Positions 2,594-29,096 of a stretch of 41,284 nucleotides of DNA are shown here, in pieces. Each line of letters opens with the position of its first letter. Position 1 is the first letter of the stretch. Under the pieces are notes generated by a model. The model saw only the letters and a list, made by a program, of their open reading frames with translations. It searched no databases and was not told the origin of the DNA. The translations under genes were made by a program, and so were the position numbers. The stretch is from a virus: positions 1-41,284 of IMG/VR virus record IMGVR_UViG_3300025436_000005, one strand, 5' to 3'.

Positions 2594-2727
2594 TCGTCGT
2601 CCTCCAATTCTTCCTCTTCCAGTTCGTCCTCATCATCGTCTTCGTCGAAGAGATCCTCGTCATCTTCATCTGTGCCCTCGTCATCGATGTCACTGAGGCA
2701 CGTCTCGATACGCTCTGCCAGTCTCAT
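2590..2727 (-). CDS. very acidic 45-residue protein
   Basis: The product begins MRLAERIETCLSDIDDEG and then consists almost wholly of Asp and Glu, with a few Leu, to its end. It starts at ATG 2727, overlapping the polymerase stop (ATGA), and its TGA overlaps the GTG start of the clamp loader. Both junctions point to translational coupling. An acidic tail-like peptide between polymerase and clamp loader could be a protein-protein contact or DNA mimic, but this is inference. The opposite strand reads as poly-serine, a shadow. Confidence 0.55.
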   Translation of the reverse strand: MRLAERIETCLSDIDDEGTDEDDEDLFDEDDDEDELEEEELEDDE

Positions 2728-4211
2728 TGTTTGATCCTTCCATTCGCTCTACAGGGAACACACTCGCCACCTTTTGAATTGCAGCCCGTATCGCCGCAGG
2801 CTACATATGTTATCGTAGTCTTCGGGTACTTCACTTTGCTATACCAATTTTGCTCCCCTACCTCAATCTCGACCCCAAGCGGGACCGTAATCCACTTCCA
2901 CTCATCCATGATATCTTTCGTAGCAATCCGTGTTACCAACTCGGCATAATCATCGAGTTCCTTCTTGTGAACATCTCCCACGATCGAATCATGGATCTGC
3001 CCTATCACCCTCGACCGCATCTTTCGCTTCTTCAGTTCAGCCACCAACTGAATCATAGTCCATAGCATACAGTGGAAGGCTGGACCCTGGATGTGGAGGT
3101 TCATCACCTGATTCTTCGAGAACACACCGGCACAGACGAAACCCGTTACTAGCTCAAACCATCCACGGCTTCTATACTGACGAACTCGTTCCTGCCGCCA
3201 TGTGTTATAGACCCTGAACCTCGTATTCCAGAATCTGTCCTCTACCTGCATGATGTGGTGCTCAAATGTCCCTTTCACAGCCTTAGCATTCGGATCACAT
3301 TCCCCCAACTCAGTGATCCCCAGTGCACTGAGATGATCCTCTATTCTAGTCCCGTCGGTGTCTGTCAGTCCTATCGATGATGCCCAGAGATTCTGAGCGA
3401 CCTGCTTATGCCAATCACCATAGAATTCAGCGAAGACGAACCCACTCTTAGCGGCACTGCGAATCGCCTTCGTTACCTTCTGTACTGGCAGCATGAAGCA
3501 CTCTGCTGCCATGTCCCGATGCATATCCCCTTCATAGGTATCATGGATCAGTGTTGGGTCGACGCATAGGTTGCAGGCCACCTTGACTTCTTGCGACGAG
3601 AAGTCCGATTCAACCAAGACGTATTCATCGCTTCGTGGGATGAATGCCGTCCGGATCAGCTTCCCGATTTCTGGATCTCGCACTGGGATGTTTTGGAAAT
3701 TTATATCCGAGTTACTGCCACGATAGGAATGCGCAGTATGCAGATTATTGAAGACATGAAGGAAGCCGTCGTCTTCAACCTCCCGTCGTACGCCACGGAG
3801 ATATGTTCCCAGTAGCTTGTTCAGCTTCTCCATCTTCAAAAAGCCTCGGGCATACTTCAGCCCCGTCCGTTCGAGGGCGGACTCGTCTAGTTGAGGCCGT
3901 CTCTTCTTACTCTTACCTCCGCTAGTGTACGATTCACACGGCAATTTCATGTCGTCATACAGAACAGCCGCCAGCTGCTCTCGACTGGTCAGATTGGTTT
4001 CCGATCCATACCGGCGCCGCTGGAGTTTGTACTCATCACATTCTTTCAGCTTCCCCTCGAGGGAGGTAATCCGTTGTTCCGTCTCAGTAATAGTCTTGTC
4101 GAGGTAGGTGACGTCAATCCGCATCCCGGCCGCCTCTATCTCAGAGAACGCCAGAGTTCCTCTGTGGAAGAGTTCGTAGGCTACTGGAGATGCACATTTG
4201 ACGTCGTTCAC
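2724..4211 (-). CDS. polA: family A DNA polymerase, polymerase domain only
   Basis: 495 residues covering the palm, fingers and thumb of a Pol I-type polymerase. Motif A is ESDFSSQEVKVA at residues 201-212 (catalytic D203). Motif B, the O helix, is RSAAKSGFVFAEFYG at 251-265 (R251, K255, Y264). Motif C is QIHDSIVGD at 405-413 (catalytic D408). The conserved FQNIPVRDPEIGKLIRTAF lies just before motif A. No 3'-5' exonuclease is present; that domain sits two genes upstream, fused to a uracil-DNA glycosylase (4699-5946). The Phe at the O-helix position corresponding to E. coli F762 would be expected to limit dideoxynucleotide use, by analogy. It starts at ATG 4211 overlapping the MazG-like stop. 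Confidence 0.93.
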   Translation of the reverse strand: MNDVKCASPVAYELFHRGTLAFSEIEAAGMRIDVTYLDKTITETEQRITSLEGKLKECDEYKLQRRRYGSETNLTSREQLAAVLYDDMKLPCESYTSGGKSKKRRPQLDESALERTGLKYARGFLKMEKLNKLLGTYLRGVRREVEDDGFLHVFNNLHTAHSYRGSNSDINFQNIPVRDPEIGKLIRTAFIPRSDEYVLVESDFSSQEVKVACNLCVDPTLIHDTYEGDMHRDMAAECFMLPVQKVTKAIRSAAKSGFVFAEFYGDWHKQVAQNLWASSIGLTDTDGTRIEDHLSALGITELGECDPNAKAVKGTFEHHIMQVEDRFWNTRFRVYNTWRQERVRQYRSRGWFELVTGFVCAGVFSKNQVMNLHIQGPAFHCMLWTMIQLVAELKKRKMRSRVIGQIHDSIVGDVHKKELDDYAELVTRIATKDIMDEWKWITVPLGVEIEVGEQNWYSKVKYPKTTITYVACGDTGCNSKGGECVPCRANGRIKQ

Positions 4212-4702
4212 GGTGTTTGGTCCTGTAGTACCTTCGTAATATCAGGGGCCTTCCAGTCGGCTGGTTTAATCCATTTCCCGTCCGCCCGTTTATGCCCTCC
4301 GGGACCAAACTTCCGGAGGTTCGATTCATCAACCTCTTTCAGCAGCGGCTTGTCAGAGATCCCACAGGCACTCAGCGTTCCGATGGTGACCACGGAAATA
4401 TCTGCACACCCATCGGCAATCTCGATCAAGTCCGGCGGCCGTTTCTTATTCACCACCAGCTCGTAGAATCCGTCGAGGAGGGCAACCAGTCCCTGCTGAG
4501 ACATCTGAGGGGAAATGACCACATCGACGCCGAGGGCGGTGATCGTCTCCATTGCCTCTTCGAAGATCAGCTTGGCTCGAAGCAGTCGGACGTCTTCCGT
4601 CGGAACGGTTGGCTGCGTCAGAACATCCTGACCAGCCAACCACATGAACGATTCGATCCTCTTCTGATGCGACGATTTCAGCATGTGATTGCTTTGGCTC
4701 AT
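4208..4702 (-). CDS. MazG-like / PRA-PH-family nucleotide pyrophosphohydrolase
   Basis: 164 residues from ATG 4702, chosen because GGAG lies six bases upstream and the start overlaps the previous TGA; an in-frame ATG at 4714 is possible. The all-alpha NTP-pyrophosphatase signature is visible: LIFEEAMETITAL gives the E-E-x2-E helix, and EIADGCADISVVTIGT gives the E-x-x-D helix that binds Mg2+. The C-terminal block EVDESNLRKFGPGGHKRADG matches phage phosphoribosyl-ATP-pyrophosphohydrolase-like proteins. It would hydrolyse (d)NTPs to monophosphates, perhaps sanitising pools. It sits between the two halves of the replicative polymerase, an unusual location. Confidence 0.8.
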   Translation of the reverse strand: MSQSNHMLKSSHQKRIESFMWLAGQDVLTQPTVPTEDVRLLRAKLIFEEAMETITALGVDVVISPQMSQQGLVALLDGFYELVVNKKRPPDLIEIADGCADISVVTIGTLSACGISDKPLLKEVDESNLRKFGPGGHKRADGKWIKPADWKAPDITKVLQDQTP

Positions 4703-5946
4703 TTGTAGCTCCAAGGAATGTCGAACCCCATTATCTGTCTCTGGCGAACGGCCAGACGAAACTCTAGCAATGCGTCTAAACCGCAGTAACGGAGAAGTTC
4801 AGACTTATCAACCTCATTCACTCGATTCTTCCCTCTGGCACTCCCACCGTCCAGATATGGACTAATGTGATCCGAGTATTCGGGAAACCCAAGATGAGCG
4901 AACGATTGGAATTTCAACCCAGTGATTCCCGGCCTACTGTCCATCAGGTGAGCGAACAGCATCGTGTCATGGCACCAATTCCGAACGCGGTGTCCGAATT
5001 CCTTTCGCACCCATCGATCTTCAAACTTCAGATTGCTTGCTATCTTCGGAATCGGTGACCGTGTCACCGCCTGCGTCGCTTCCCTAGCCTTTCCCCTCCA
5101 CGGATATGCGACTGTGATCTCTGGCTTCGTCCTCCCCCATGAAACTGCGCAGCAAACTATCTCTGACCACGGAGTGTCTGGCTTCAGCGTAGTGGTCTCA
5201 AAATCAATCGCAAGCGCCCCATCCTCCATCAAAGAAATGCCGTACAGAATCTGGGCAGCCTCATCATCATCCACCACTACTCGGACATCGCCGACCCAAT
5301 CCTGTTTCTCTGTCCACGGCCGGCCAACCAAGTCAAATGCCAACTCGAGATGGCGCTCGAACCACATATCGAGAACACCATCTTCCTCCCTCAACAGATA
5401 GGAAGGATGGTGTGTTGGGCAGATCCAGACGTTCGGCTTCTGGCACGGGATCTGGAATCCGACCCACCGACTGATCCCACCAACGTCCTCCTTCCAGAGA
5501 TGCCCAATCACACTCTCAACCGCCGGGCCACCGAGGGGGATGATCATTCTCGGTTTCAGCTCTTTTATCGTCTGGATTAGATTAGGTCGGCAGTACCCTA
5601 TCTCGTCCTTCGTTGGGGTTCTGTTTCTTTTACCATCCTCTGTTTTCGTCGATGGCCGGCAGATCAGGGCGTTGGTTTTCCAGCAGTCCCGATCAAGATC
5701 ATAGCCGAGAGCAGCGATGGACTGACGGAGACGCTGCCCCGCCTTGCCAATCAGTTGGATACCCTGTTCATCTTCATCCCCACCAGGCGCCTCTGCGACA
5801 ATCAAAACACCATGTTTTCCCTCTCCAGTCACGGGCATCTTCGGGCTATCACAAGTCTTATGGAGTCCACAAGCCCCGCAAGCCGGAACAAGACCGACAA
5901 TCTTAGGGGCTGGCTTGGCAGCGCTGGCGAAAAATCCCTGAGGCAT
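4699..5946 (-). CDS. uracil-DNA glycosylase (family 4-like) fused to a DnaQ-type 3'-5' exonuclease
   Basis: 415 residues in two domains. Residues 20-210 look like a family 4 UDG: ACGACGLHKTC supplies the first Fe-S cysteines, AEAPGGDED (51-59) is the water-activating motif, NALICRP is at 92-98, and PTHHPSYLL (177-185) is the DNA-intercalation motif. Residues 220-415 form a Pol I-type proofreading domain: Exo I AIDFETT (D248, E250), Exo II ASNLKFED (N305, D310), WCHDTM (D327) and Exo III LLRYCGLDA (Y387, D391). UDG-exo-PolA in one chain is known from SPO1-like phages. Here the chain is split, with a MazG-like gene between the parts. The likely role is proofreading plus uracil removal or detection at the fork. 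Confidence 0.88.
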   Translation of the reverse strand: MPQGFFASAAKPAPKIVGLVPACGACGLHKTCDSPKMPVTGEGKHGVLIVAEAPGGDEDEQGIQLIGKAGQRLRQSIAALGYDLDRDCWKTNALICRPSTKTEDGKRNRTPTKDEIGYCRPNLIQTIKELKPRMIIPLGGPAVESVIGHLWKEDVGGISRWVGFQIPCQKPNVWICPTHHPSYLLREEDGVLDMWFERHLELAFDLVGRPWTEKQDWVGDVRVVVDDDEAAQILYGISLMEDGALAIDFETTTLKPDTPWSEIVCCAVSWGRTKPEITVAYPWRGKAREATQAVTRSPIPKIASNLKFEDRWVRKEFGHRVRNWCHDTMLFAHLMDSRPGITGLKFQSFAHLGFPEYSDHISPYLDGGSARGKNRVNEVDKSELLRYCGLDALLEFRLAVRQRQIMGFDIPWSYK

Positions 5947-6532: not shown

Positions 6533-7564
6533 CTATTCCTTCTTCGCAAAGAATCCAACTCGATTGTCCTTCTTCGCGGCGGTCTTGTCCACGGACTGCT
6601 GCTCCCTCCCAGTGAGGATTCTAGTCTCAATCCTCGCCATCTTCAGCAGCATGGTGAACTTGCCAAGATCGAATGGAGGGAACTCTCCGGTCGCATCCTT
6701 ATACACGAACTTGTTCTGCCTTGCACCACGAACAGCCCCGGCATCGATCATATCAATCGCGATCTTCTCGGGGATTGTCTTCGACTCGCCGCGTTCTGGC
6801 TCCCAGAAAGTCTCCTCTTTCAACTGACCCGGTATGCCGGCGACTGAGCCACAGATCGGCTTGGACACGGGGCGAAGACTCCAGCTGTTGGTTGAGCTGA
6901 TAATCGGGCACCGGACTTGGTACAACGCGGCCATCCTCAGCCGCTCGATCCATTCGTTGCTATCCCATGTCCCGTATCCGAATCCTTTGACGGTCTGCTG
7001 CTCCCCGATCTTCTCGACCTGGGGCCACGCGTTGGGGCCGAACTTGATCAGCGACAGGATCAAGTCTGGTTTCAGAATCCCCAGCCCCGTCCATAGAATA
7101 TCACTGTAGACCTCCCAGCAGAAGATCGCGGACAACTTCAGCCCACAGATCTCGAACAGCTTAAACCGAGCCATGAAGTCGGTTTCGGGGGTCACATGGC
7201 CGAAGCCATGGGTGCTGACATGATCATACCGCGGGAGGGCCAGTTTCAGCACCCTGCCGAGGTATTCTCCCTTTTCGTTGATGAACCAGATTGCACTGCG
7301 ATTGGTGTTGGCATCATCCTTCTGCTGTACCCCAACCACGAAGGCTGTCCCGTGCTGCTTATTCAGCTGCCGGAGCTTCGGGTACAGCGAGTCGAATTCT
7401 ATGTCCTTCTGGTGGGGCATCATCACAGCCCCACCGAAGAACTCCTGTGGTGTCACCAGGATGTCCGGCTTGTGCTGCTCACAGGCCGAACGAAGCCACT
7501 CCAGCTTCTTATCAAAGTCGTGAAGCTGGGTCGGTACGGTGGATAGGACTTTTACTGGTGACAT
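6533..7564 (-). CDS. carbon-nitrogen hydrolase (nitrilase superfamily)
   Basis: 343 residues with the nitrilase-superfamily catalytic triad in order. The Glu is in TPQEFF (E41), the Lys in GRVLKLALP (K107), and the Cys nucleophile in AIFCWEVYSD (C149). Members cleave nitriles, amides or carbamoyl groups, or transfer acyl groups. The C-terminal 60 residues are an extra basic segment. It lies immediately downstream of the sliding clamp, in the same direction as the dpdA/folE/queE/queD genes. Because preQ0 of the 7-deazaguanine pathway is itself a nitrile, a role in base modification is an attractive inference, but substrate cannot be read from sequence. Confidence 0.82.
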   Translation of the reverse strand: MSPVKVLSTVPTQLHDFDKKLEWLRSACEQHKPDILVTPQEFFGGAVMMPHQKDIEFDSLYPKLRQLNKQHGTAFVVGVQQKDDANTNRSAIWFINEKGEYLGRVLKLALPRYDHVSTHGFGHVTPETDFMARFKLFEICGLKLSAIFCWEVYSDILWTGLGILKPDLILSLIKFGPNAWPQVEKIGEQQTVKGFGYGTWDSNEWIERLRMAALYQVRCPIISSTNSWSLRPVSKPICGSVAGIPGQLKEETFWEPERGESKTIPEKIAIDMIDAGAVRGARQNKFVYKDATGEFPPFDLGKFTMLLKMARIETRILTGREQQSVDKTAAKKDNRVGFFAKKE

Positions 7565-7576
7565 CGATTCGTCTTT

Positions 7577-8581
7577 CTACTCGACGGAGGAGAGGCACGA
7601 TACGTATGAGAACTTCCCCGTCGAAATCTTCAGCCGTCCCTGCCCGACCACACAGTCGTTGGTCCGCTCGGTGATCTCGACCAGCAGCTTCGGAGCAATC
7701 ATGAACGAAACGTCCCCGGCGAACTTGACCGACTTCTGCTCCTCAAACTTACCATAGGAGCCCTCACCACGAATCAGCAGCTTGCCATCCCTCATCTTGA
7801 CGAAGATCTGATCGTTCTCGACGTTCTCCGAGCTGAAGATTTTCGCCTTGTCAACGGCGTCCTTCAACCCACCGGGCAGCGTGACCGGCTCTCCCTCGCA
7901 GGCAAAGATCGGGTCGAGACTCTCATATGCTTCCTGCCATCGCCGGCAGCTCAACACCAACCCAGCGGCGTTGCGGAAATGGACCCATGCCTCACCTTCA
8001 GACATCTCGGTCATCCCCAACTGCGGGATGTGCTTGATCGATGCCTGACGAATCAGGCAGGACTTCCTCACTCCGGTCTTGACCGGGAACCGAGCCGCCT
8101 GGAAGTTATCGCACGCCTCAGCGTAGTCGGGATGCAGATGGACGCAGGTCAGGTTGAAGTTGGTATCCTTCCCCTGACTCGCGACCGATTGAACGATGCT
8201 AATCGCTTCAAGGAATTCCTTGTCCAGTTCCACCCATTCGGTTGGGGTCTCGATCGAGTCGACCGGCAGGTTGACCTGTTCCTCCATCACGATCTCAGCC
8301 CGCCGCTTGTTTCCTTTGACCTGGATCTTGCCTTGGATCGGGGTGATCTCAAGCTCATCCTCCGGCAGCTTAGACAGCAACTCCATCAATGGCTTCGCGA
8401 CCACAGCCCCAGATAGCCCCTTGACTGGGCTCTCAATGGCGCAGGCAATCTCATCGTTGAATGTGAGAATTCGATCATTCCGAAACACGAAACACGAACT
8501 CTGTTCAATCAACTCCCTACTAGCCAAGCCGGGGGACACGGCCTCAAGACGAGACAAGAACAACTCACGATTCACGCTCAT
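7577..8581 (-). CDS. dnaN: DNA polymerase sliding clamp (DnaN-like)
   Basis: 334 residues with the three-fold beta-clamp pattern and no long insertions. Recognisable pieces are AVVAKPLMELLSKLPEDELE (domain 1), INxx-type strands, and LPVDSIETPTEWVELDKEFL, matching the domain 1/2 linker of bacterial clamps. A C-terminal third holds a cluster of beta strands (FSYVSCLSSVE at the end). It would encircle DNA as a ring and hold the polymerase at 2724-4211, loaded by the ATPase at 1670-2593. ATG 8581 overlaps the stop of the DpdA-like gene upstream (ATGA). It is divergent, with no canonical C-terminal MPMRL. Confidence 0.8.
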   Translation of the reverse strand: MSVNRELFLSRLEAVSPGLASRELIEQSSCFVFRNDRILTFNDEIACAIESPVKGLSGAVVAKPLMELLSKLPEDELEITPIQGKIQVKGNKRRAEIVMEEQVNLPVDSIETPTEWVELDKEFLEAISIVQSVASQGKDTNFNLTCVHLHPDYAEACDNFQAARFPVKTGVRKSCLIRQASIKHIPQLGMTEMSEGEAWVHFRNAAGLVLSCRRWQEAYESLDPIFACEGEPVTLPGGLKDAVDKAKIFSSENVENDQIFVKMRDGKLLIRGEGSYGKFEEQKSVKFAGDVSFMIAPKLLVEITERTNDCVVGQGRLKISTGKFSYVSCLSSVE

Positions 8582-9606
8582 GCCATAGACTCCTTTTCAG
8601 TATTTTCACAGTGCCAAAGAAACAACTCGTATGCCGCGCCTCGCTGGGACAGCAGATCGGGGTAGGCGAATAGACGGTTCTTGATCATCTTCTCGATTCT
8701 AAACTTAACGCCACCACCGGCGAGATAAACCCTCTTGATCGGGACTGCCTCGTTGACCCGCAAGAAGAAAACCGCGTTGACCAGCTTTCTGCATTGGTCA
8801 TAGTTTGTCACGCCCCTCTCAACTATCCGTATGATTCGCTTCCCCCTCTCCCCCCACCGCTCCAAACCTCTCTGTAGCTTGTAATCGGGTGGGACGTCGA
8901 CTTCTTCCGAGTGGCCATACGTTACGCCACAAGAGGCTAGGTAGTCATCGAGGTTGTTACGAGCGATCGGACTCATATCCCTCGTATGACTATTAAACGC
9001 CCCTCGCATGCTAGAAACATCAGAAGTGTATAGCCTAATCGGGTCCAACGAATAGTCGAATTTTCCCCCCACAACGTGAGGAGTGCATATCTTCCCAAAT
9101 GATCCACCCAGTACCCATGAAGCAGAGTCCACCGAATGCCACGGAAAGTACTTCATCATGTCGAGATCAGACACAGCAAAACCGTGGACTGCACGGAGGC
9201 TCTTCCCCTCCGAATCGACCAGATACGGGCGAATCTTCTGAAACCAGTCCATTCGCAATCGTGGTGATTTCGCCCGCCCGAAGCCTATCCCAATGTATGG
9301 AGCCTTACTGTCGAGGATCTTATCGAGCCATTTCAATGACTCTAGATGATGATATACGGGGATCACCTTCTCGATAGGGAGATGGCGGACCATCTCGTTG
9401 TAGTTCTCCCAGCTTCTGGCGGCGGCGCCGTCGATTAGCTCCTCCGTATGCTCCTCGTGTTCCAGCTGAGAACCTGGAATAACATCCAGGCTAACATAGT
9501 AGTCAGCCTGCGGATGCCTCTTGCAAAAACCTATGTACTCCTGCAGATCAATCGGCACCTGACGCGTCCACGCACTCCAGGCACCGCAGTCAAGCATAAA
9601 CGGCAT
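8578..9606 (-). CDS. DpdA-like DNA 7-deazaguanine transglycosylase, divergent copy
   Basis: 342 residues of the TGT-like fold, paralogous to the next gene upstream. Shared landmarks are the N-terminal Asp motif (MLDCGAWSAW here, MLDSGAFSVW there), YYVSLDVIPG, VIPVYHHLESLKWL, and PWHSVDSASW in the barrel. In TGT the DSGGF Asp and a later Asp do the base exchange. Here the Ser-Gly-Ala-Phe part is changed to Cys-Gly-Ala-Trp, and HGFG has become HGFA. It would exchange guanine in DNA for a deazaguanine, or act as a partner or specificity variant. It overlaps the paralogue's stop by 17 bases. The enzyme class is fairly sure, the activity of this copy less so. Confidence 0.75.
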   Translation of the reverse strand: MPFMLDCGAWSAWTRQVPIDLQEYIGFCKRHPQADYYVSLDVIPGSQLEHEEHTEELIDGAAARSWENYNEMVRHLPIEKVIPVYHHLESLKWLDKILDSKAPYIGIGFGRAKSPRLRMDWFQKIRPYLVDSEGKSLRAVHGFAVSDLDMMKYFPWHSVDSASWVLGGSFGKICTPHVVGGKFDYSLDPIRLYTSDVSSMRGAFNSHTRDMSPIARNNLDDYLASCGVTYGHSEEVDVPPDYKLQRGLERWGERGKRIIRIVERGVTNYDQCRKLVNAVFFLRVNEAVPIKRVYLAGGGVKFRIEKMIKNRLFAYPDLLSQRGAAYELFLWHCENTEKESMA

Positions 9607-10627
9607 CGGCTGCCTCCCTCTGAATCACTTCAAGGTACTGGGTGAACGACTTATCAAGTCCAGCGTATGAGTACAGTCGTTTAGCGACCACCCGAGCCAT
9701 CCGCTCCCGATCAGAGTCCCCGCATCCAGCAAAATAGATATGCTGGACAGTGGAAGCCGGCAGTCCTTCCTGATGCTTGATGAACACAGCGTTGACGATA
9801 CGTCTGGCATCGCTGCTAGTACGAACGCCGGCAACCGTCTCACGGACGATCTTGGTCTTGGTCTTATCTAGCCACTGCTCAATCCCATCGACTCGTTTGT
9901 ATCCTGCGGGAACGTCGATCAGCTCGAATTCGCCAAGCGAAACATCGCAGTATCGCAGCCAATCTTCAACGTGTTTCCTCCACACCGGCAGCATGGTATC
10001 ATAGTGGATCTGAAACTCCCCTTTCCACCCAGACTGGGGTGTCATTGCATTGACTGCGGCCTTGAGATCGAAATCGAATTGACCATTGGTCTTCCGCGGC
10101 ACCCATATCTTACCAAAAGCGGCCAGCACCAACCAGCTGGCCGAGTCGACCGAATACCACGGGAACCGTCTGAGTAGCTCAAGGCTGTTGATCCCGAATC
10201 CATGAGTCCGCACGATCGGCTTGCCATCCGGTGCAACAACGCCACGAACTGAATTCAGCCACCCAATCACAGCCCGCCTGTTGACAGATCCCGCCGTCCC
10301 GCCAAGCCCAATGTATGGGCACTCAATCGCCAACATCTTCTCCAACCACTTAAGGGACTCCCCGCGGTGGAAAACCGGGATCACTTTCTCAAAGTCCAGC
10401 TTACGAATCATCCGCAGGTAGTTCTTCCATCCCCGTGCGGCAGCGTCCTCAATGTCCGCGGCGGTCGGAGAACTATCAGCAGTCCCTGGGATCACGTCAA
10501 GGTTGACGTAGTAAGAAATCGCTGGATGAGTCTGGCAGAAGTCAATGTACTGGTCGATGTCGATTGAAGCCCCAGACTTCCAGACTGAGAAGGCACCAGA
10601 GTCGAGCATCAGCAGGCGGTCCGTCAT
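9590..10627 (-). CDS. dpdA: DpdA-like DNA 7-deazaguanine transglycosylase
   Basis: 345 residues matching phage DpdA. The opening MLDSGAFSVWKSG carries the nucleophile-region Asp, followed by YYVNLDVIPG, VIPVFHRGESLKWLEK, YIGLGG, HGFGIN and PWYSVDSASW, which together trace a TGT-type barrel. DpdA inserts preQ0 or a related 7-deazaguanine into DNA by replacing guanine. It lacks the tRNA-binding Zn site of bacterial TGT, as expected for phage members. The upstream neighbour is the PRTase-FolE fusion and the downstream neighbour the second DpdA-like copy, all with coupled starts. This is the core of the proposed DNA-modification block. Confidence 0.83.
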   Translation of the reverse strand: MTDRLLMLDSGAFSVWKSGASIDIDQYIDFCQTHPAISYYVNLDVIPGTADSSPTAADIEDAAARGWKNYLRMIRKLDFEKVIPVFHRGESLKWLEKMLAIECPYIGLGGTAGSVNRRAVIGWLNSVRGVVAPDGKPIVRTHGFGINSLELLRRFPWYSVDSASWLVLAAFGKIWVPRKTNGQFDFDLKAAVNAMTPQSGWKGEFQIHYDTMLPVWRKHVEDWLRYCDVSLGEFELIDVPAGYKRVDGIEQWLDKTKTKIVRETVAGVRTSSDARRIVNAVFIKHQEGLPASTVQHIYFAGCGDSDRERMARVVAKRLYSYAGLDKSFTQYLEVIQREAADAVYA

Positions 10628-10628
10628 G

Positions 10629-11498
10629 CTAACCTCGGATCAACGACAAGAGTTCCTGACGAGCGGGAGCCTTGTCCCGAAACACACCAGTTAGGCTCGA
10701 GGTCACCATCTCACTGCCCTGCTTGTTGACTCCTCGACAGGTCATACAAAAGTGCTTCGCCTCCAGGATACAGGCAGAGCCGAGTGGCTTCAGATACTCG
10801 TCCAGAGCCGCCGTCACCTGCTGACAGATTCGTTCTTGAATCTGAAGCCGGCGAGTGAATACCTCGAGCAGCCGGACCAGCTTCGATACCCCAATCACCT
10901 TGCCATTCGGCACATACGCCAAGTGGGCCTGCCCGAAGAAGGGCTGCATATGATGCTCGCAGACTGAGAAGAACTCGACGTTGCGAACCAACACCATCTC
11001 GTCGCAAGCCCCCTCCTCGAACACCTTGAAGACAGAGGCGGGGTCGATCTTGTACCCCGAGAAGATTTCACCATAGCTGCGGATCACCCGAGCCGGCGTC
11101 TCCCTCAATCCTTCACGATTCGGATCGTCTCCGACGAATTCAAGCAGCCGTCGGATGTTTTCCTCTGGTCCATCCTGCTCATCGGTCTCCCACGGAAACA
11201 CTATCCAGTCGGAATCTTTCCGATTCCTTTTATCAACCAAGACCACAAATGGCTTGTCCGGGAAGCGCCCATTGTATCGTTGCTTAGTCACACCAGAGTC
11301 GATGATGTCATCGACGATAACATCTGCCTCCTCTGGGGTACTCACGAGTCGCATGGCGCCGATCCTACGAATCGCAAGGGCCGCCATCGCACCGCCGCGA
11401 GGAACTCCATAAAGTGCGACACCATCCGGGATGCGACTGCGTGCTACAGCAGCGCAGCTCTCAACATCACGCCACGTCAAAACCGTTCGCTCTGTCAT
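10629..11498 (-). CDS. folE: xanthine/guanine phosphoribosyltransferase-like domain fused to GTP cyclohydrolase I
   Basis: 289 residues in two domains. Residues 1-110 resemble a compact XGPRT: LTWRDVESCAAVA at the N-terminus, YGVPRGG at 30-36, the PRPP loop DVIVDDIIDSGVT at 59-71, and DWIVFPWE at 97-104, matching the base-specificity hood (WIEQPWD in E. coli Gpt). Residues 112-289 are FolE: GLRETPARV, zinc ligands C180 and H183 in CEHHMQPFFG, VIGVSKLVRL, RRLQIQERI, and the third ligand C251 in HFCMTCRGV. FolE makes dihydroneopterin triphosphate from GTP, the first step of the deazaguanine pathway. The fusion suggests guanine salvage feeding GTP to FolE. The start overlaps the upstream stop (ATGA). 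Confidence 0.9.
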   Translation of the reverse strand: MTERTVLTWRDVESCAAVARSRIPDGVALYGVPRGGAMAALAIRRIGAMRLVSTPEEADVIVDDIIDSGVTKQRYNGRFPDKPFVVLVDKRNRKDSDWIVFPWETDEQDGPEENIRRLLEFVGDDPNREGLRETPARVIRSYGEIFSGYKIDPASVFKVFEEGACDEMVLVRNVEFFSVCEHHMQPFFGQAHLAYVPNGKVIGVSKLVRLLEVFTRRLQIQERICQQVTAALDEYLKPLGSACILEAKHFCMTCRGVNKQGSEMVTSSLTGVFRDKAPARQELLSLIRG

Positions 11499-11698
11499 TT
11501 GCTCCCCTTCTCGAAAACGATCCCACCATCCCCATCGACCGGCATCAAGTGGGGATTGTCCCCATAACTGATCTCAACAGGGATACCATCAGGGAACGCT
11601 TTGCAGGCCGGCCTCTCATTGGTCTCGGCGTTATCGTCCGACTTAGTCCCCTGAAAATGAACGCACTGACGGGTGAAGCATTTCGGCACTGCCAACAT
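11495..11698 (-). CDS. small Cys-containing protein of a widespread uncharacterised type
   Basis: 67 residues. Cysteines are placed as CFTRQC near the N-terminus and ACKAFPDGIP in the middle, followed by a GD-x-GIVFE ending. This CxxxxC/C-x-A-F-P-D-G-I-P pattern resembles a small family seen in many bacteria, function unknown. It may bind a metal. It is coupled to the PRTase-FolE gene (ATGA) and follows the metallopeptidase gene by one base, so it is co-transcribed with the modification genes. Confidence 0.6.
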   Translation of the reverse strand: MLAVPKCFTRQCVHFQGTKSDDNAETNERPACKAFPDGIPVEISYGDNPHLMPVDGDGGIVFEKGSK

Positions 11699-11700
11699 CG

Positions 11701-12453
11701 TTATTTTCCTTTCCCGATTACATCGTCGAAGTATTTCGCCAGCGCCTTCGGCATCTTGGCACCGTTCTTAGTACCATAACTAGGATGCGTGTAGGCGAGC
11801 AGTCCCTCGCAGAACATCTCAGCTGGATGGTCCGCCGCGTACTGACTCAACTTGCGGAGCTCACTCTTCGGGGTCACCTTCCAGATATTGACCAGACGGC
11901 CAGGCTCCCCGACACCCTTCCCTCCGTTGGCGGCGAGCATTTGCTCAAGAAGATGGTGGCCGAACTCATGGGTGGCAATATCTGAGACTGCATCACTCAA
12001 CGAGAACTGCCCGCCCTTCAAATGGTCCGATGTTGCGGGATGCCCGAAGCCGGCGACCTCAGCCGTGCCGGTCTCTTTATCATACTGTCCAGTCGTCGCT
12101 CCCTGCCCATTCTTCGAGATCCAGAACGGTGTCCCCTTCAACCGAATACCCATCTCAGACTTTGGCAGCTGGTCAGTCAACTTCTGGCAACGCTCTGCAA
12201 CACCAGCGAGTGACTTCTCAACCTCCACCGCAGTCTGCTGTATCTCTTCCTTGTCAGCCTTGCGCTTCAGTCTCCCCAGTGTCTCTGGATCGACCGACAC
12301 CTTGACAGACACCCTCGCCGAGGACCCACCAGATCCTCCCCCACTGGCAAACCGCCCGCGTTGATCGTGGTTCGGGTTCTCTTTGATGTCGATATGAACC
12401 TTCAATCGACCGTCAACGATTTCAGACTTCACAGTTGCGTCTGTTTCACTCAT
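11701..12453 (-). CDS. putative zinc metallopeptidase with phage head-type N-terminus
   Basis: 250 residues. The segment IATHEFGHHLLEQML carries HExxH (H-E-F-G-H) with an extra His, the signature of zincin metallopeptidases, and a downstream AEMFCEGLLAY offers a Glu ligand candidate. The N-terminal part has KENPNHDQRGRFASGGGSGG, a motif I associate with phage minor head or head-morphogenesis proteins. A lone zincin domain with this lead could be a maturation or structural protease. It lies inside the deazaguanine block between queE and folE, which is odd for a virion gene. Substrate unknown. Confidence 0.6.
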   Translation of the reverse strand: MSETDATVKSEIVDGRLKVHIDIKENPNHDQRGRFASGGGSGGSSARVSVKVSVDPETLGRLKRKADKEEIQQTAVEVEKSLAGVAERCQKLTDQLPKSEMGIRLKGTPFWISKNGQGATTGQYDKETGTAEVAGFGHPATSDHLKGGQFSLSDAVSDIATHEFGHHLLEQMLAANGGKGVGEPGRLVNIWKVTPKSELRKLSQYAADHPAEMFCEGLLAYTHPSYGTKNGAKMPKALAKYFDDVIGKGK

Positions 12454-13112
12454 TTCAGCCCCACGATTTTCTGCATTTGGAGACAGAGACGATAGCCATA
12501 CTGCATGCAGCTCTGAACCGTCGCGTCAACATTCCGTTTGTTTGCTTCCGGATCCTGCTCATCCAGAGGCTGCAGATAGATCTCGGATCGAGGGAAGTCC
12601 TCGGGAGGACGAGCTGGTCGCATCCCACCCAAAGCCGTCAGCGGCAGGCCGTCCGTATCAACTTGACCCGCCTGGAGTACGTACTTGAAGGCATAGGGCC
12701 ACCGCTCCCGCGCGATGCCTGGCGTCTTGGGTGAGCAAACAACCACAGCCCGAGAATGAAGCCCTGGAAGATGAAGAATGCCGTTGGTTTCAATCTGAAC
12801 TTGCGTGCCACGATCAATCAGCAGATCCACTAGCCGAGTGATGTCCTGGCGGAGCGGCTCTCCGCCCGTCAACACAACCAGATCAGCGCCACCCGTCAGT
12901 TCAAGCAGATCCTCCACCAACTCAAACCGACGACCAGTAGTGTAGTTCGTATCACAAGCAGGACACTGAAAGTTGCAACCAGCCAATCGGATAAAAGTTG
13001 CTGGTCTACCGGCAAACGGCCCCTCGCCCTGGATCGTCTTCCATACGTCTACGATCTCAAGAGAATCGGGGCTGCTATGATCTCGGTGTTCGGGTGGTTG
13101 TTTATTCAGCAT
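12450..13112 (-). CDS. queE: QueE, 7-carboxy-7-deazaguanine synthase (radical SAM)
   Basis: 220 residues from ATG 13112, where the start overlaps the previous stop (TAATG); a longer frame exists but would run far into the upstream gene. QGEGPFAGRPATFIRLAGCN leads into the Cys triad C46, C50 and C53 in CNFQCPAC, which binds the [4Fe-4S] cluster. VVLTGGEPL is the SAM-binding GGE motif, and IETNG follows. It converts 6-carboxy-tetrahydropterin to CDG, the ring-contraction step of queuosine-type base synthesis. Its spacing of three then two residues between cysteines is typical of short QueE. QueD is two genes upstream. Confidence 0.92.
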   Translation of the reverse strand: MLNKQPPEHRDHSSPDSLEIVDVWKTIQGEGPFAGRPATFIRLAGCNFQCPACDTNYTTGRRFELVEDLLELTGGADLVVLTGGEPLRQDITRLVDLLIDRGTQVQIETNGILHLPGLHSRAVVVCSPKTPGIARERWPYAFKYVLQAGQVDTDGLPLTALGGMRPARPPEDFPRSEIYLQPLDEQDPEANKRNVDATVQSCMQYGYRLCLQMQKIVGLK

Positions 13113-13339
13113 TAGTCGATCCGTCCGATTCTCCACTGCTTCTCTGCCTGCTTCCGGATAAGATAACGTCTGTCCAGGCACTGACTCACGACCCAAACTA
13201 GTGTCCGAAGATTTGAATCGGCTTTATCAACCACGACAGACTGACCACATTCCATCGCACGCAGAGCCTGAATCAGCTCCCTTCTGAAAGATTCCCCTGC
13301 CTGGGGACACCGGACAACAGGGACATTTTCGATCTCCAT
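13112..13339 (-). CDS. small hypothetical protein, possible DNA-binding
   Basis: 75 residues between queD and queE, coupled to queE by TAATG. It has a helical first half (FRRELIQALRAMECGQSVVVDK) and a C-terminal QAEKQWRIGRID tail. This A-x-M-x-x-G-x-S-V then basic-tail layout recalls short phage proteins that carry a helix-turn-helix-like fold, but I see no decisive motif. Function unknown. Confidence 0.5.
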   Translation of the reverse strand: MEIENVPVVRCPQAGESFRRELIQALRAMECGQSVVVDKADSNLRTLVWVVSQCLDRRYLIRKQAEKQWRIGRID

Positions 13340-13348
13340 GATTCGGTC

Positions 13349-13822
13349 TCACTTCACGTAGTCAGCGCTGCAATTGGGGGTTTCGAATAATCGAACTCGT
13401 ACCACATCAATATCGTACGAACGCAACAATTCACTCGCTACTTGAAACAGCACCCGGGCCATGTTCTCGGCGGTCGGATTGCCGTCCAGCACAAACGGCT
13501 CTTTCCCACCCAACACGGCATCGACCTGACCATTTGCACCCTCAAGAATCTGCTCACCGTCTTGCCGCAAAACAGTCAGCACATGCAGCAGCGGGTCGGC
13601 AGGATGAAGAATGAGGTTGTGGTCCCAGTTTTGGTCGATCCATCCCCCGACCTCAGTTTTGATAACCCCGAAGTCAATCACGCGGCCAAGCTGATCAAGT
13701 TCTGGCGCAGTAACTGTCACCTCGGCGACGTAGCGGTGGCCGTGAAGATGTTTGCACTTCGATTCGTGCTTCAATACCCGATGACCTGCGTCGAATTCAA
13801 GTTTGCGTGTGATACTGATCAT
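13349..13822 (-). CDS. queD: QueD, 6-carboxy-5,6,7,8-tetrahydropterin synthase
   Basis: 157 residues with the QueD/PTPS signature. FDAGHR (H14) and SKCKHLHGHRY supply the catalytic Cys C23 and zinc ligands H27 and H29. DFGVIK, WDHNLIL (catalytic Asp-His), PTAENMA and ETPNCSADY (C-terminal Glu for pterin binding) follow in the usual order. It turns dihydroneopterin triphosphate into 6-carboxy-tetrahydropterin, linking FolE to QueE. Its Cys-x-x-x-His spacing and length agree with QueD rather than PTPS. Start ATG 13822. Confidence 0.93.
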   Translation of the reverse strand: MISITRKLEFDAGHRVLKHESKCKHLHGHRYVAEVTVTAPELDQLGRVIDFGVIKTEVGGWIDQNWDHNLILHPADPLLHVLTVLRQDGEQILEGANGQVDAVLGGKEPFVLDGNPTAENMARVLFQVASELLRSYDIDVVRVRLFETPNCSADYVK

Positions 13823-13885
13823 TGCGTCTCCCTCAACACAAGCAGCCGGGGACTGTCCCCGGCTACTTTGACCACCAACTCGAAA

Positions 13886-14800
13886 CTAGACAGCGGCCGG
13901 GACTGCGGCGGGCTCGGCAACCGCCGCTGCCGCGGGAGCAGCGACCACGGTGGCCCGATCCTCTGGGGCCACCGAGAGAAAGCCGCGAGCAGCGTCACGG
14001 GTGTGGTTGAGAGCGGTCTGGCTCTCCTTCTGGTTCGGCTTGCCATAAGCCTCATCCAGCTTCTTGACCAGCTCCTCGGTGACGTTCAGGCCGTTCTCCT
14101 TCAGCAGCTTGCCAGCGAGGTACAAGCGGCCGGGACGCGTTTCCGGGACTTCGCAGAATCCGCGCAGCCCACCCTGCGTGCGGTAGTACGTGACGTCAAC
14201 AATGGCCTTGCTGTAGCCCCCGCCATACATCACCTCGATGTCGATCCGCTTGAAGTTAGCCAAGCCGACTTTGGCGGCGATCTGGCCGGCGAGGAACGCC
14301 TTGGTCTCCCGCGGCTCTTTCTCAGCCTTTTCGGCCGCTTTCGCCGCGGCCTTCGCGGCCTTCGCGGCCTTCTCCTCCGCCTTGGTGGCCTCCTTCTCGG
14401 CTTTCGCGGCAACGCGCTCCGCTTCCTTGTCAGCCTTCTCCTTTGCCTTCGCGGCCTCCTTCGCGGCCTTGGCCTCGGCGTTGGCGGCAGTCTGCTTCTC
14501 ACGAGCTGCGGCCTTCTCAGCTTTGTCCGCCGCGTTCAGCTCGGCATCGCTCGGCAACTCTGCCGTGGTGGTCCCGTCCGACGTACCATCCTCGAACACC
14601 TCAAACTCTTCACCACCAGTGATCGCCGCCAGGACGGTGTTCAGCGTCCCCTGATCATCGTCCTCGAGCTTGACATCCTCGTCAACCATCTCCTTGACCT
14701 TCGCCAGCTTGGCAGCCATGCGGGCGTCGTTCCACTTGTCAGCATTCTTCAGACCGAGGGCGACAAACAACTTCACAGCAGAACGTTTCGCGATCTTCAT
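13886..14800 (-). CDS. Ala/Lys/Glu-rich low-complexity protein, histone-like or scaffold-like
   Basis: 304 residues. The N-terminal 80 residues are ordered (MKIAKRSAVKLFVALGLKN), residues 90-165 are almost all K, A and E in KAEKEA-type repeats predicting one long helix, and residues 170-260 include YGGGYSKAIVDVTYYRTQGG, which looks like a folded domain. The tail is Ala/Pro-rich. A protein of this composition could bind DNA like a histone-type linker or form a coiled-coil scaffold. The repeat core matches eukaryotic H1-like tails only in composition, so I name no family. Start ATG 14800 has AGGAGA seven bases upstream. Confidence 0.55.
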   Translation of the reverse strand: MKIAKRSAVKLFVALGLKNADKWNDARMAAKLAKVKEMVDEDVKLEDDDQGTLNTVLAAITGGEEFEVFEDGTSDGTTTAELPSDAELNAADKAEKAAAREKQTAANAEAKAAKEAAKAKEKADKEAERVAAKAEKEATKAEEKAAKAAKAAAKAAEKAEKEPRETKAFLAGQIAAKVGLANFKRIDIEVMYGGGYSKAIVDVTYYRTQGGLRGFCEVPETRPGRLYLAGKLLKENGLNVTEELVKKLDEAYGKPNQKESQTALNHTRDAARGFLSVAPEDRATVVAAPAAAAVAEPAAVPAAV

Positions 14801-14916: not shown

Positions 14917-15108
14917 TCAGATTTCAGGTAATTTTCTGGAATTGCCATCGTCCTGCTTTGCATTCCGAACTTCCTGTCGGAGCACCTGGACGTCTTCTGG
15001 AGCCTCGAATCCCAAGCGCACCGAGTTACCTTTCAGCTTCACCACGGTGACCGTGATATTCTCGCCGATGACGATCTTCTGCCCCATCTTCCGTGACAAT
15101 ACCAACAT
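14917..15108 (-). CDS. csrA: CsrA-family carbon storage regulator
   Basis: 63 residues beginning MLVLSRKMGQKIVIGENITV, with VRLGFEAPEDVQVLRQEV following: the full CsrA beta-strand dimer plus C-terminal helix. CsrA binds GGA in hairpin loops of mRNA leaders, often blocking ribosome binding. A phage copy could repress host translation or time its own genes. It lies 13 bases after the helicase gene and before the Ala/Lys-rich gene. The RNA-binding strands (LSRK and VRLGFEAP) are intact, so function is likely retained. Confidence 0.92.
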   Translation of the reverse strand: MLVLSRKMGQKIVIGENITVTVVKLKGNSVRLGFEAPEDVQVLRQEVRNAKQDDGNSRKLPEI

Positions 15109-15121: not shown

Positions 15122-17815
15122 TCAAAAGCAACTCAGAACAAACGGCCTTGACAACGCCAAGCAGTGTGCTATGTTTATGCATCTATATTCGTTGAACTCG
15201 TCCTCTCGCCGAACGATCCAGTTCAACCTCCGAATCCCCTTCTCTTGCTCTTCCTTCGTAACATTGATCCCAATCATCCCAGTCACGTGGGCGTTTTTGC
15301 GTTTGTCCTCTGAGAACGAACCTTTCCCTAAAGTGGCTCGCTCATACGCCCCAGAGTTCGCCTGCGTAGCTGTCACCAGCAGGCAGTGAAGTTCCTGTGA
15401 TGCCCGCCTCATCTGCTTCCAGATCAGGTTCGTACCATGACGGAAATCATTGTTCCCGCTGACACGAGGTGGCTCCAGATTATCGGCGTAATCAATCACC
15501 AGAATATCCGGCGTCCCCCAACCATCCCTCTCCCATCCTTGCAATATTGATCGAATCCCCTCCATCCCTATGGCAGAGTTCGGATGACAGGATAGCTTCA
15601 AATACGGTGCTGTCCGTCCCTGTGTTATCTTCTCACAGGCTTTTACAGCCTTCCCCCATGACAATGCGTCGTCGAATTCGATCTCCTCGTGCTCGACTGT
15701 CACTTCGCCGGTCTCTTTGTTCTTTTCGATCTTCGTCGGCTTCTGAACCTTCTGTGGCCTGAACGGGTGCTTGGTAGCCCGCACCATCATCCTCTTCATA
15801 ATTTGCCGTTCGCTCATGTCTCCGACTTCGAAGAATGCGACCTTCTTCTTCTGCAGCATTCCCCGCCAGGCGACCTCCATCAACCACCAGGTATTATGCA
15901 CTATACAATCATTCGCAACAAAGCTATGATGAGGCGGCACAGTCAAATCATAGGTTCGTCGATCCCCAACGGGCTCTATTGAAGTCACCTCATCCCAGAG
16001 GACATGAGAATTCATATACAGATCGTAAGTGCTAGTGCCGGCCGCCTTGGCGAAGGACTTCCTCATTATCGGGCATTTCTTAGCTATCTGCTCTCGAATG
16101 AATCCCAACTGATCAGTGCCCATATATGCACGAAGTGCGTGGTTCTTTCTAACGCGCTTACCCCTACCAACACCAAGAGAATCTGGAACTGGAGAAGAGG
16201 AGAATTCATGCTCTAGTTCAGAAATAAACCTACCGGCCACCTGATGAGGGAACTTGTCCAAAAAGGATTTATGCAGCCCAACAGCCGTCACAGGTCTCCT
16301 CTTGTAAGACATCATGTTGATTTCGTTGGTGAATAGTTGAGCATTCTCTGCATCACTAATAGACAACGTCCAATGACAGAACCGTTTTCCCTCCCCATTG
16401 TAGGAATCACCAGACTTTATTCGATGAACTATCCCGAACCGCGTCAGTAGGTGACCGATCTGACGCACCATTCGCTCGTTAGCCAATCCAACACCCACTT
16501 CTCCGCTCTTCAGCACATACCCATCGCACGACATGAATATACGAAGGAATAACGCAACTTGATCTTTCGGACACGAAAATACCGCAGCCGGGATAATCTT
16601 TGTCTTCGCAGAGTGACCAGCAATACCCAGTCGTCTCATTAAAGATGTGGCCCCGTGTAAGTGGTAACTGATCCCATCCTTCCTATGCCCAAACCCTAAA
16701 CGATCACAACACCCCAGGAAATCCTCTATCAATTCGTCATCCGTGTTCGTAAATGTACTGCATATCCCATTCTTCTTCCTAGTCCCGTTCTTCTTGCAAT
16801 ACAACTGAACACAGCACCCCTCGGCAAGCATATACGCCAGAAACTTTAGTTCGTCTTCGTCCATCCGACAACCACCGAATACATCCAGTTTCTTTGGAAC
16901 GGCTACAAAATCCCCGACCTTGAGATCTGAGAGGATCTTCCATCCGTCTGGAGTAAGGTACTTATGATTCCCTGTGGTGATCACCCGCCGACCAATCCTC
17001 GTCTCCATCTCCCAACATGGCTTTTTTCCATTATCCCAAAAATCACTCACTGCCACGAACTCAATTCTTTGGGTCTCCTCATTCAACGACAGAATTCTTC
17101 TCGAATCTTCGGATAGCACAATATCCTCAATAGTGCTGAGGCTTCCATCTTCAAGAAGAATCTCCATATCGCCGGCTATACACTTACCAGATTTCTCAGC
17201 ACCGAGGAACGCAAGGAACGCATCGCGCTCAAACGCATTGCCGAAGAATTTCGCCAAGTCCCCAGGCCACTCAATCAGCGATTCTGTTTCCTCCTCAAAT
17301 ACAGCGCGAATCGCCTCCTGATCCTCCAGCACATCAATCCCAGCCCCCTCACCCAACTCGATCTTGCCGAATGATGAAACCTTAGCCAGCGCTTTCTCAT
17401 GTTCACCAAACTCCAGATCCCCTTGGATTCCCTCGACCAGCCGCGATAGGGCCACAGTCTGAAAATGACGGCCGGCGAGGTCGATCACATACTCTGGATT
17501 CTGCTTGGCCGCCAGCTCCTCATACTCGTCTGACAGGCTAGAAAGGAATCGGTCAACCAAAGCAACCGTGTCTTTGTCCTTCTCGCCATTGGACGCCCAG
17601 GATTGGAAGATTGCTTCAATCGAAGCTCCTGGGGCCTTCTGATACTTCAGAAAGTATTTACAGCACCACATGCCGACAAGATTCGACCACTTGGACTTGA
17701 ACATACCATCCTGGCGGTTCCACTTGGCAGCGATCTTGCCGGCGACGACATTGTCGACGATCATACCCGTGAGCACGGTTCGTTCATCACCACCCGAATG
17801 ATCCTTAACCTTCAC
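15122..17815 (-). CDS. dnaB: DnaB-type replicative helicase interrupted by an in-frame intein
   Basis: 897 residues. Residues 1-211 plus 642-897 form a RecA-like helicase; residues 212-641 are an intein. Joining them restores Walker A as GAEKSGK-T, with the intein between the Lys and Thr. Walker B is PDILVIDYAD (769-778), and LLVTATQANSGAYER (812-826) matches the DnaB H3 region. It would unwind the fork with the primase at 25278-26147. The start is GTG 17815, overlapping the TGA of the gene before (GTGA). Without splicing, the P-loop is broken and the helicase inactive. The N-terminal domain is short compared with E. coli DnaB, as in T7/SPP1-like phage helicases. Confidence 0.93.
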   Translation of the reverse strand: MKVKDHSGGDERTVLTGMIVDNVVAGKIAAKWNRQDGMFKSKWSNLVGMWCCKYFLKYQKAPGASIEAIFQSWASNGEKDKDTVALVDRFLSSLSDEYEELAAKQNPEYVIDLAGRHFQTVALSRLVEGIQGDLEFGEHEKALAKVSSFGKIELGEGAGIDVLEDQEAIRAVFEEETESLIEWPGDLAKFFGNAFERDAFLAFLGAEKSGKCIAGDMEILLEDGSLSTIEDIVLSEDSRRILSLNEETQRIEFVAVSDFWDNGKKPCWEMETRIGRRVITTGNHKYLTPDGWKILSDLKVGDFVAVPKKLDVFGGCRMDEDELKFLAYMLAEGCCVQLYCKKNGTRKKNGICSTFTNTDDELIEDFLGCCDRLGFGHRKDGISYHLHGATSLMRRLGIAGHSAKTKIIPAAVFSCPKDQVALFLRIFMSCDGYVLKSGEVGVGLANERMVRQIGHLLTRFGIVHRIKSGDSYNGEGKRFCHWTLSISDAENAQLFTNEINMMSYKRRPVTAVGLHKSFLDKFPHQVAGRFISELEHEFSSSPVPDSLGVGRGKRVRKNHALRAYMGTDQLGFIREQIAKKCPIMRKSFAKAAGTSTYDLYMNSHVLWDEVTSIEPVGDRRTYDLTVPPHHSFVANDCIVHNTWWLMEVAWRGMLQKKKVAFFEVGDMSERQIMKRMMVRATKHPFRPQKVQKPTKIEKNKETGEVTVEHEEIEFDDALSWGKAVKACEKITQGRTAPYLKLSCHPNSAIGMEGIRSILQGWERDGWGTPDILVIDYADNLEPPRVSGNNDFRHGTNLIWKQMRRASQELHCLLVTATQANSGAYERATLGKGSFSEDKRKNAHVTGMIGINVTKEEQEKGIRRLNWIVRREDEFNEYRCINIAHCLALSRPFVLSCF
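15893..17182 (-). other. intein coding segment within the helicase (430 residues, LAGLIDADG-type endonuclease)
   Basis: The intein runs from C212 to N641 of the helicase. Block A begins CIAGDMEILLEDGSLS. Block B is GNHKYLTPDGW. The C-terminal blocks end HHSFVANDCIVHN and are followed by the +1 residue Thr. Cys at the N splice site, His-Asn at the end and Thr after it are all standard splicing residues, so it looks active. Inside are two LAGLIDADG-like motifs: LKFLAYMLAEGCC near residue 324 and LFLRIFMSCDGYV near 422, a homing endonuclease. Insertion in the P-loop matches the known preference of inteins for active sites. Confidence 0.9.
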
Positions 17816-28370: not shown

Positions 28371-29000
28371 TCAATTCTTCAAGATTCTGACGTAATCGTC
28401 CGGCAAGGACCAGCGCTTGCCTGGCATGCCGTTCGGCAGGCTGGCGAAGTAAAGGCCATCGCCAAGAGAGCAGAAGTGGAGCGGATTGCCGCTGCGAATC
28501 ACCAGCATTCGGTTGGGCTTTGTCCAGATCCCGAGCACGGCCATCGGACCTTCGACCATCTCTTTGATGCGGGCGGCGCGGCTAACCAAGTTGCCAGAGC
28601 CGTTGGCCATCAGCAAGCCGAGCACTTCACTATCGCACTCGGTCTGCATGGTGAGGTCGAAGCGGTCGACCAGCTCGCGGTAGTTCCGCACCACCCCGTT
28701 GTGGACCAACCACCCACGACCCGCAGGATGCGGATGGTTGTTGGTGTTGTTGTCCGGGCTGCCATGAGTCGCCCAGCGGCAGTGGCCGATCATCATGCTG
28801 GACTCGCGGACCATCCGCAGGTCGCCCAAACTGTCAGTGATCGGGCCGGGTTTCTTGAAGGTCTGGATCTGGTCACCGTCCGCCCAGGCGAGGCCGAACG
28901 CATGGTCTCCGCGTTGCTCGGTAATGATCGCCAGCTTGCGGAGCAGCTTCATGTCGGGAACCGCCCCGTTGTCACCGAAGAATCCGAAGATGCCACACAT
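28371..29000 (-). CDS. class II glutamine amidotransferase (Ntn-hydrolase domain)
   Basis: 209 residues from ATG 29000, so the product begins MCGIFGFFGD with Cys2 as the N-terminal nucleophile once Met is removed; a GTG one codon earlier is possible. IGHCRWATHGSPDN and LVHNGVVRN are the other class II glutaminase motifs (Arg, Asn and Gly oxyanion region). It has only the glutaminase half and no transferase partner domain, so it probably supplies ammonia to a separate enzyme. The neighbour is an amidoligase. A role in deazaguanine amidation is possible but speculative. Confidence 0.85.
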   Translation of the reverse strand: MCGIFGFFGDNGAVPDMKLLRKLAIITEQRGDHAFGLAWADGDQIQTFKKPGPITDSLGDLRMVRESSMMIGHCRWATHGSPDNNTNNHPHPAGRGWLVHNGVVRNYRELVDRFDLTMQTECDSEVLGLLMANGSGNLVSRAARIKEMVEGPMAVLGIWTKPNRMLVIRSGNPLHFCSLGDGLYFASLPNGMPGKRWSLPDDYVRILKN

Positions 29001-29032
29001 CACAAGTCTCCTTGATCCAGTTCGCAGTCTTG

Positions 29033-29070
29033 TTCCCTACTAGTTATTCGTCCGGGCCGGCTCGTTATTG
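29033..29070 (-). promoter_or_regulatory. AATAAC direct-repeat element, copy 3
   Basis: On the minus strand, CCAATAAC, 15 bases containing CCGG-C-CCGG, AATAAC, TAGTAGGGAAC. Shorter than copies 1 and 5 on its downstream side. Upstream of the amidotransferase. Confidence 0.5.
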
Positions 29071-29096
29071 GCCGGTCCGGAGGAAATTCTCAGAAT

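Follow-up and report, generated by a model that had tools for sequence, protein, structure and literature searches.

Described phage modules and the present locus

The closest described counterpart of the locus reported here is the Queuovirinae-type module for 7-deazaguanine modification of DNA (phages 9g, CAjan and NP1), in which genes for QueE, QueC or Gat-QueC, QueD, FolE, DpdA, a sliding clamp and PolA lie together; this order, ending in clamp and polymerase, is seen in Stenotrophomonas phage vB_SM_ytsc_ply2008005c and Pseudomonas phage NP1. We examined the corresponding block of IMGVR_UViG_3300025436_000005, a linear virus contig of 41,284 bases (this whole stretch is called the window). 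The block encodes the same pathway enzymes, including a phosphoribosyltransferase (PRTase)-FolE fusion, and dpdA is likewise followed by clamp and polymerase genes; it is a relative of the known phage modules with QueC missing. It differs from them in having neither QueC nor Gat-QueC, in having two DpdA transglycosylases which look circularly permuted, and in the addition of a gene for a nitrilase-type carbon-nitrogen hydrolase. Across viral lineages, this nitrilase and QueC were mutually exclusive, and the nitrilase was strictly tied to dpdA.

Routes without QueC have been described. Mycobacterium phage Bipper (a complete record) encodes, like the window, DpdA, QueD, QueE and FolE without QueC, and 7-carboxy-7-deazaguanine (CDG) was suggested for it, QueC being the one gene missing (Hutinet et al. 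2019, PMC6884629); unlike the window, no nitrilase was found in Bipper and its DpdA lies on a different branch. The class of Acidovorax phage ACP17 also has FolE, QueD and QueE without QueC, with an accessory pair (glycosyltransferase-like gp124 and PTPS-like gp125) where the window has the nitrilase. Loci L020 and L022 of the set described below, whose DpdAs are closest to those of the window, both belong to this class; no gp124 or gp125 homologue was found in the window. The tubercidin pathway of Streptomyces (TubABC, TubE) is a natural QueC-less route that stops at CDG and uses CDG itself, there for a nucleoside antibiotic, unlike the DNA of the window's case (PMC6112128).

Nitrilase and QueC across viral lineages

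A search for QueC (PF06508) gave no candidate in the 41,284-base window and was positive in 12 of 14 control genomes, in agreement with the first-pass annotation, made from the sequence alone, which had seen no QueC here; within the fragment sequenced, the QueC that marks the preQ0-type subgroup is not present. Inside this window the absence proves little alone, because the genome is incomplete, as judged from the window open reading frames (ORFs) compared with PHROGs and Pfam: apart from a questionable low-complexity match to a tape-measure protein, none was recognised as a structural gene. The same virus is also represented by contig L001, which contributes 345 further bases. A class II glutamine amidotransferase (28371-29003) adjoins a PF12224 amidoligase (29097-29927) at 28371-29927, and the pair was attractive as a QueC substitute because it could amidate CDG; it was rejected since elsewhere the amidoligase travels with gamma-glutamylcyclotransferase and not with dpdA.

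A DpdA-profile scan of IMG/VR yielded 80 loci; further scans of IMG/VR used the nitrilase itself as query and were thus blind to gene context. Lineages were defined by DpdA proteins less than 80% identical. A single-sequence scan with QueE returned no matches. Ten lineages besides the window carried the nitrilase (the L087 group, L099, L104, L105 and L178-L183), and in 11/11 its gene stood beside dpdA or one to a few genes away, mostly inside folE/queD/queE blocks. QueC was found nowhere in the nitrilase-bearing records of 15-95 kb (0/11 lineages), whereas it was present in 33 of the 38 complete-block lineages without nitrilase. By lineage, 33 had QueC only, none had both, 11 had the nitrilase only and five had neither (Fisher p = 1.5e-7; 1.5e-6 with the nine certain lineages, and 0.027 with only the loci found through DpdA). 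QueD and QueE accompanied the nitrilase in nine of the 11 lineages and were not on the piece retrieved for L179 and L181. Searched whole, the 20 other records with the nitrilase, or otherwise without QueC, gave no QueC either, and the same searches were positive in L021, L002, L057 and L035.

The pairing appears to have arisen repeatedly, since in the first five nitrilase lineages the DpdAs did not form one clade (approximately unbiased test, p 0.004) and parsimony needed five changes for them. In a sign test on independent pairs, the three that were supported all pointed the expected way, too few for significance. L087-L089 lack QueC and have a nitrilase homologue in its usual place, flanked by queE and folE; the nitrilase of L087 and L099 in this way occupies the QueC position of relatives such as L021 and L035. 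The DpdA branch of the window shows three alternatives: the nitrilase (window), the glycosyltransferase-like and PTPS-like pair (L020, L022), and QueC (L021).

The nitrilase was not found in phage GenBank records, nor, with strict patterns, in 84,980 prokaryote genomes. Its scan also gave about 70 weak partial matches (25-34% over ~100 aa). Nitrilase matches in L066, L073, L092, L093 and L096 proved false; a lysine-rich ORF of L099 had entered the first hidden Markov model (HMM), which was rebuilt and the search repeated.

The window protein scored half a bit below the PF00795 cut-off, with the homologues of L087 (4e-10) and L104 (1e-5) above it. It has both marks of the nitrilase superfamily, namely profile with alpha-beta-beta-alpha fold and the Glu-Lys-Cys triad (Glu41-Lys107-Cys149), the Cys lying in a 'CWE' motif. 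CWE is the motif of true nitrilases. The Glu (TPQE), Lys (K..LP.Y) and Cys (FCWE) were invariant in 11/11 lineages. Structure comparison placed the model at Z 17-19 to nitrilases and related amidases (Z 19.3 to Nitrilase 4), and the best Foldseek E was 2e-10. The viral enzyme thus shares fold, triad and CWE motif with Nitrilase 4, Nit6803 and cyanide dihydratase; it differs from them by low identity (11-16%), conserved TPQE and IKF motifs and a long C-terminal extension, and its family is so far viral only and tied to dpdA. In the literature searched we found no link between a nitrilase and 7-deazaguanine DNA, and the QueC-excluding family appears to be new.

Proposed pathway and alternatives

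The pathway enzymes are present with intact motifs, and QueC is absent from the records examined. There is good support for CDG as the compound at which the viral enzymes stop, because FolE, QueD and QueE look intact and QueC is missing both here and in every nitrilase-bearing relative. The proposal of the first-pass annotation that the DNA holds CDG or a CDG-derived base thus gains ground as regards the viral end product, while the base in the DNA is a prediction. We put at about an even chance the reading that this is a QueC-less 7-deazaguanine pathway in which the virus makes and inserts CDG and the nitrilase returns preQ0 to CDG. FolE, QueD and QueE would take GTP to CDG; the two DpdAs would replace guanines of the viral DNA by free CDG; and the nitrilase would hydrolyse preQ0, made from CDG by host QueC, back to CDG, so that neither the pool nor the DNA would move beyond the carboxyl form. 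The base expected in the DNA would be dCDG (CDG as deoxynucleoside), presumably protecting against restriction. Both dCDG and 7-deazaguanine in DNA (dDG) were reportedly seen in phages by Cui and co-workers in 2023.

We infer the action on preQ0 from the genomic exclusion of QueC; preQ0 is also the sole nitrile of the pathway. QueC converts CDG, an acid, to preQ0, a nitrile, and the nitrilase would reverse this, so that QueC would be useless to a CDG-making virus and host QueC, as a drain on its CDG, would have to be countered; if the enzyme is a preQ0 nitrilase, its exclusion of QueC follows naturally. The direction of the nitrilase reaction, the base that DpdA accepts and what the system is for are likewise proposed.

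Several points tell against this reading. The full-length nitrilase model, good in its first half, is of low confidence (predicted local distance difference test score, pLDDT, 54). Amidases and carbamoylases too belong to the carbon-nitrogen hydrolases, and an outcome like that of nitrile hydratase would yield the amide, 7-amido-7-deazaguanine (ADG). All IMG/VR records may be fragments, so that QueC could lie elsewhere. When the DpdA of phage 9g was expressed in E. coli, preQ0 was inserted and no dCDG was found (PMC6884629), from which CDG-accepting DpdAs must differ. The base may also be a further derivative of CDG, amidated or decarboxylated.

The amide is the alternative that survives best, although we think it unlikely: viral CDG would feed host QueC to give preQ0 or ADG, the viral enzyme would hydrate preQ0 to ADG, and the DNA would carry the corresponding deoxynucleoside, dADG. 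It is in keeping with the occurrence of dADG in phage DNA (PMC8306585) and with the amide-forming cyanide hydratase among the fold matches. Such a route depends on host QueC, so a viral QueC should help, yet QueC is never kept with the nitrilase.

Slightly less likely still is that the enzyme replaces QueC by tailoring CDG through a reaction of acyl-transfer type to a new base. The superfamily includes acyl transferases, and the nitrilase both takes the QueC place in L087 and L099 and excludes QueC; the carboxylate of CDG is not activated, however, and no ligase or ATP-using partner was seen with the nitrilase. The window amidoligase had no match in the nitrilase relatives, a weak negative as no positive control matched.

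We consider it improbable that the DNA carries preQ0 made with the help of host QueC and that the nitrilase serves something unrelated. Some phages with DpdA alone do use host preQ0 (PMC6884629, PMC8651126), and the first-pass annotation had allowed for this route; it is weakened by the nitrilase standing by dpdA in 11/11 lineages and by its strict exclusion of QueC in these eleven lineages; preQ0 would be the obvious substrate of the enzyme. There is little likelihood that QueC sits in an unsequenced part of the genome and that the product of the block is preQ0 or one of its derivatives. Although the window is a fragment, with no structural genes recognised, 33 relatives have QueC within the block or close to it, and none of the nitrilase-bearing records, the longest of them 95 kb, contains it. 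The least likely, by a little, is decarboxylation of CDG to give dDG, for which a CDG decarboxylase (DpdL) is said to have been described with dDG in some phages by the same workers in 2023, and which would suit the QueC-less ACP17, L020, L022 and L077 with their gp124/gp125 pair; the window has no gp124 or gp125 homologue, and we know of no nitrilase that acts as a decarboxylase.

Transglycosylases and remaining genes of the block

The window genes discussed are listed in Table 1.

Table 1. Coordinates of the block and adjoining genes in the window
Feature	Position	Strand	Matches and remarks
Nitrilase-type carbon-nitrogen hydrolase	6533..7564	-	PF00795 (CN_hydrolase) 7e-5
Sliding clamp	7577..8581	-	phrog_947 3e-26; usual gene downstream of dpdA in these phages
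DpdA-a, second permuted DpdA	8578..9606	-	phrog_887 2.5e-36
DpdA-b, DNA guanine transglycosylase, circularly permuted barrel	9590..10627	-	phrog_887 ('queuine tRNA-ribosyltransferase') 1e-43
PRTase-like domain fused to FolE (GTP cyclohydrolase I)	10629..11498	-	PF01227 3e-67; phrog_8995 PRTase 5e-4
67 aa ORF	11495..11698	-	no Pfam or PHROG match
250 aa zincin-like ORF, HEFGHH motif	11701..12453	-	no family match
QueE	12450..13112	-	phrog_2076 2e-46
75 aa ORF between QueD and QueE	13112..13339	-	no Pfam or PHROG match
QueD, 6-carboxytetrahydropterin synthase	13349..13822	-	PF01242 (PTPS) 3e-31; phrog_2389 6e-40

Reading along the minus strand, the order is QueD, the 75 aa ORF, QueE, the 250 aa and 67 aa ORFs, PRTase-FolE, DpdA-b, DpdA-a, the clamp, the nitrilase, a small ORF and a split DNA polymerase I. 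The first-pass annotation had placed a FolE fusion, QueD, QueE and two DpdA-like transglycosylases in one minus-strand block at 8578-13822, and family matches together with intact active-site motifs bear this out. The block does lie at these coordinates; as a functional unit it reaches further, to the nitrilase, which is part of the same transcription unit. The nitrilase and the 75, 250 and 67 aa ORFs had gone unmentioned, as had the permuted barrel of the two DpdAs, whose identity was rightly called.

The zinc, radical SAM and transglycosylase motifs are all intact, and folE, queD and queE share one block, as in phage pathways for 7-deazaguanine DNA modification. QueD keeps HGH, DH and PTAEN and matched TIGR03367 at 1e-23, slightly below the cut-off. 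QueE has its CX3CX2C motif at residue 46, starts at the ATG at 13112 and not at the TTG at 13196, and is 43-49% identical over its full length to many phage QueE proteins. FolE has the zinc motifs CEHH and HFC behind an N-terminal PRTase-like domain with VDDIIDSG; full-length homologues of the fusion (46-50% identity) occur in many phages, so that the fusion is ordinary here. No homologue of the 75, 250 or 67 aa ORF was found among the related loci. The N-terminal stretch of the 250 aa protein resembles head-morphogenesis proteins, and a gene of this kind lies between queE and folE in this virus only.

DpdA-a and DpdA-b are ~46% identical over the core, both keep the two catalytic Asp motifs by which DpdA is recognised (LD[SC]GA and VDSASW), and structures of DpdA and tRNA-guanine transglycosylase (TGT) matched the DpdA-b model at Z 11-12. 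The PADLOC Dpd models gave no match for the window DpdAs or the nitrilase, phage DpdAs being divergent. A canonical phage DpdA has an N-terminal module of ~50 residues ('[IVL][YFW].AG', then 'RL.SY.Y') ahead of the catalytic strand LDSGAFSAW. Both window DpdAs begin at the catalytic strand and have the module at the C-terminus (VQHIYFAG...RLYSYAGL and KRVYLAG...RLFAYPDL); they look circularly permuted, with the first two barrel strands moved to the C-terminus. An HMM of the N-terminal module matched C-termini only in DpdAs with no module in front (L020-L023, L041 and L056, E 4e-7 to 9e-5). For the window copies it gave 0.006 and 0.03, within or near the best shuffled controls (0.02), so that the permutation call for these two rests on alignment with L020-L022.

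The AlphaFold model of DpdA-b (pLDDT 83) has six core strands and two C-terminal strands. TGT structures, from their residue 94 on, aligned to model residues 1-292 (Z 12.4) and the DpdA 7ui4 from residue 87 (Z 11.6), whereas unrelated TIM barrels aligned from their own first strand over 1-339/345 (Z 10.6-11.5); the modelled pattern matches what circular permutation predicts. A frameshift between DpdA-b and DpdA-a was rejected as the source of the displaced module, since the single-DpdA relatives L020-L023 share the C-terminal module, followed by the clamp. We found no mention of DpdA circular permutation in the literature searched.

Permuted DpdAs also occurred in L020, L021, L022, L023, L041, L056, L057, L060 and L080, and in L077 the module is seemingly a separate small downstream ORF (9380-9640). 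Unpermuted tandem DpdA pairs were seen in QueC-bearing blocks (L002 8955-10882, L031 1975-3860, L097 1935-3805); paired transglycosylases thus recur independently of the base.

A second QueC-less class has the gp124 family beside folE, queD, queE and dpdA: L016 (ACP17) 12804-14216, L020 2815-5844, L022 2564-5543, L077 6584-7973 and L005 2389-3330. The PTPS-like gp125 family accompanies gp124 and was not seen in the truncated L005; no QueC was found in gp124-class records. The gp125 protein is a candidate for the CDG decarboxylase DpdL.

DNA polymerase I of the window is split (2724-5946) into a uracil-DNA-glycosylase (UDG)/3'-5' exonuclease protein at 4699-5946 (UDG 5e-20) and a polymerase protein at 2724-4211, with a gene for a MazG-like pyrophosphohydrolase between them; L020 and L022 are arranged similarly. 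A phage-encoded CsrA-like regulator lies at 14917-15108 (phrog_9500, 9e-21), and a DnaB-like helicase gene at 15122-17815 is split by an intein with a LAGLIDADG endonuclease domain.

It has been a question since at least Hutinet et al. 2019 whether viral DNA would carry the carboxyl form by design, as an end product, or only because gene sets are incomplete; a dedicated enzyme, in eleven lineages never together with QueC, makes it directly testable. We hold it an evenly balanced proposition that a viral nitrilase family hydrolysing preQ0 to CDG defines a recurrent class of viruses that have swapped out QueC and carry a carboxylated guanine in their DNA, some with a permuted transglycosylase. 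Should the enzyme prove to be a preQ0 nitrilase, it would add a new reaction to deazaguanine metabolism, could serve as a new tool, and would presumably deplete the queuosine precursor of the host; a guanine bearing a negative charge in DNA, if true, would be a notable chemistry for evading restriction.

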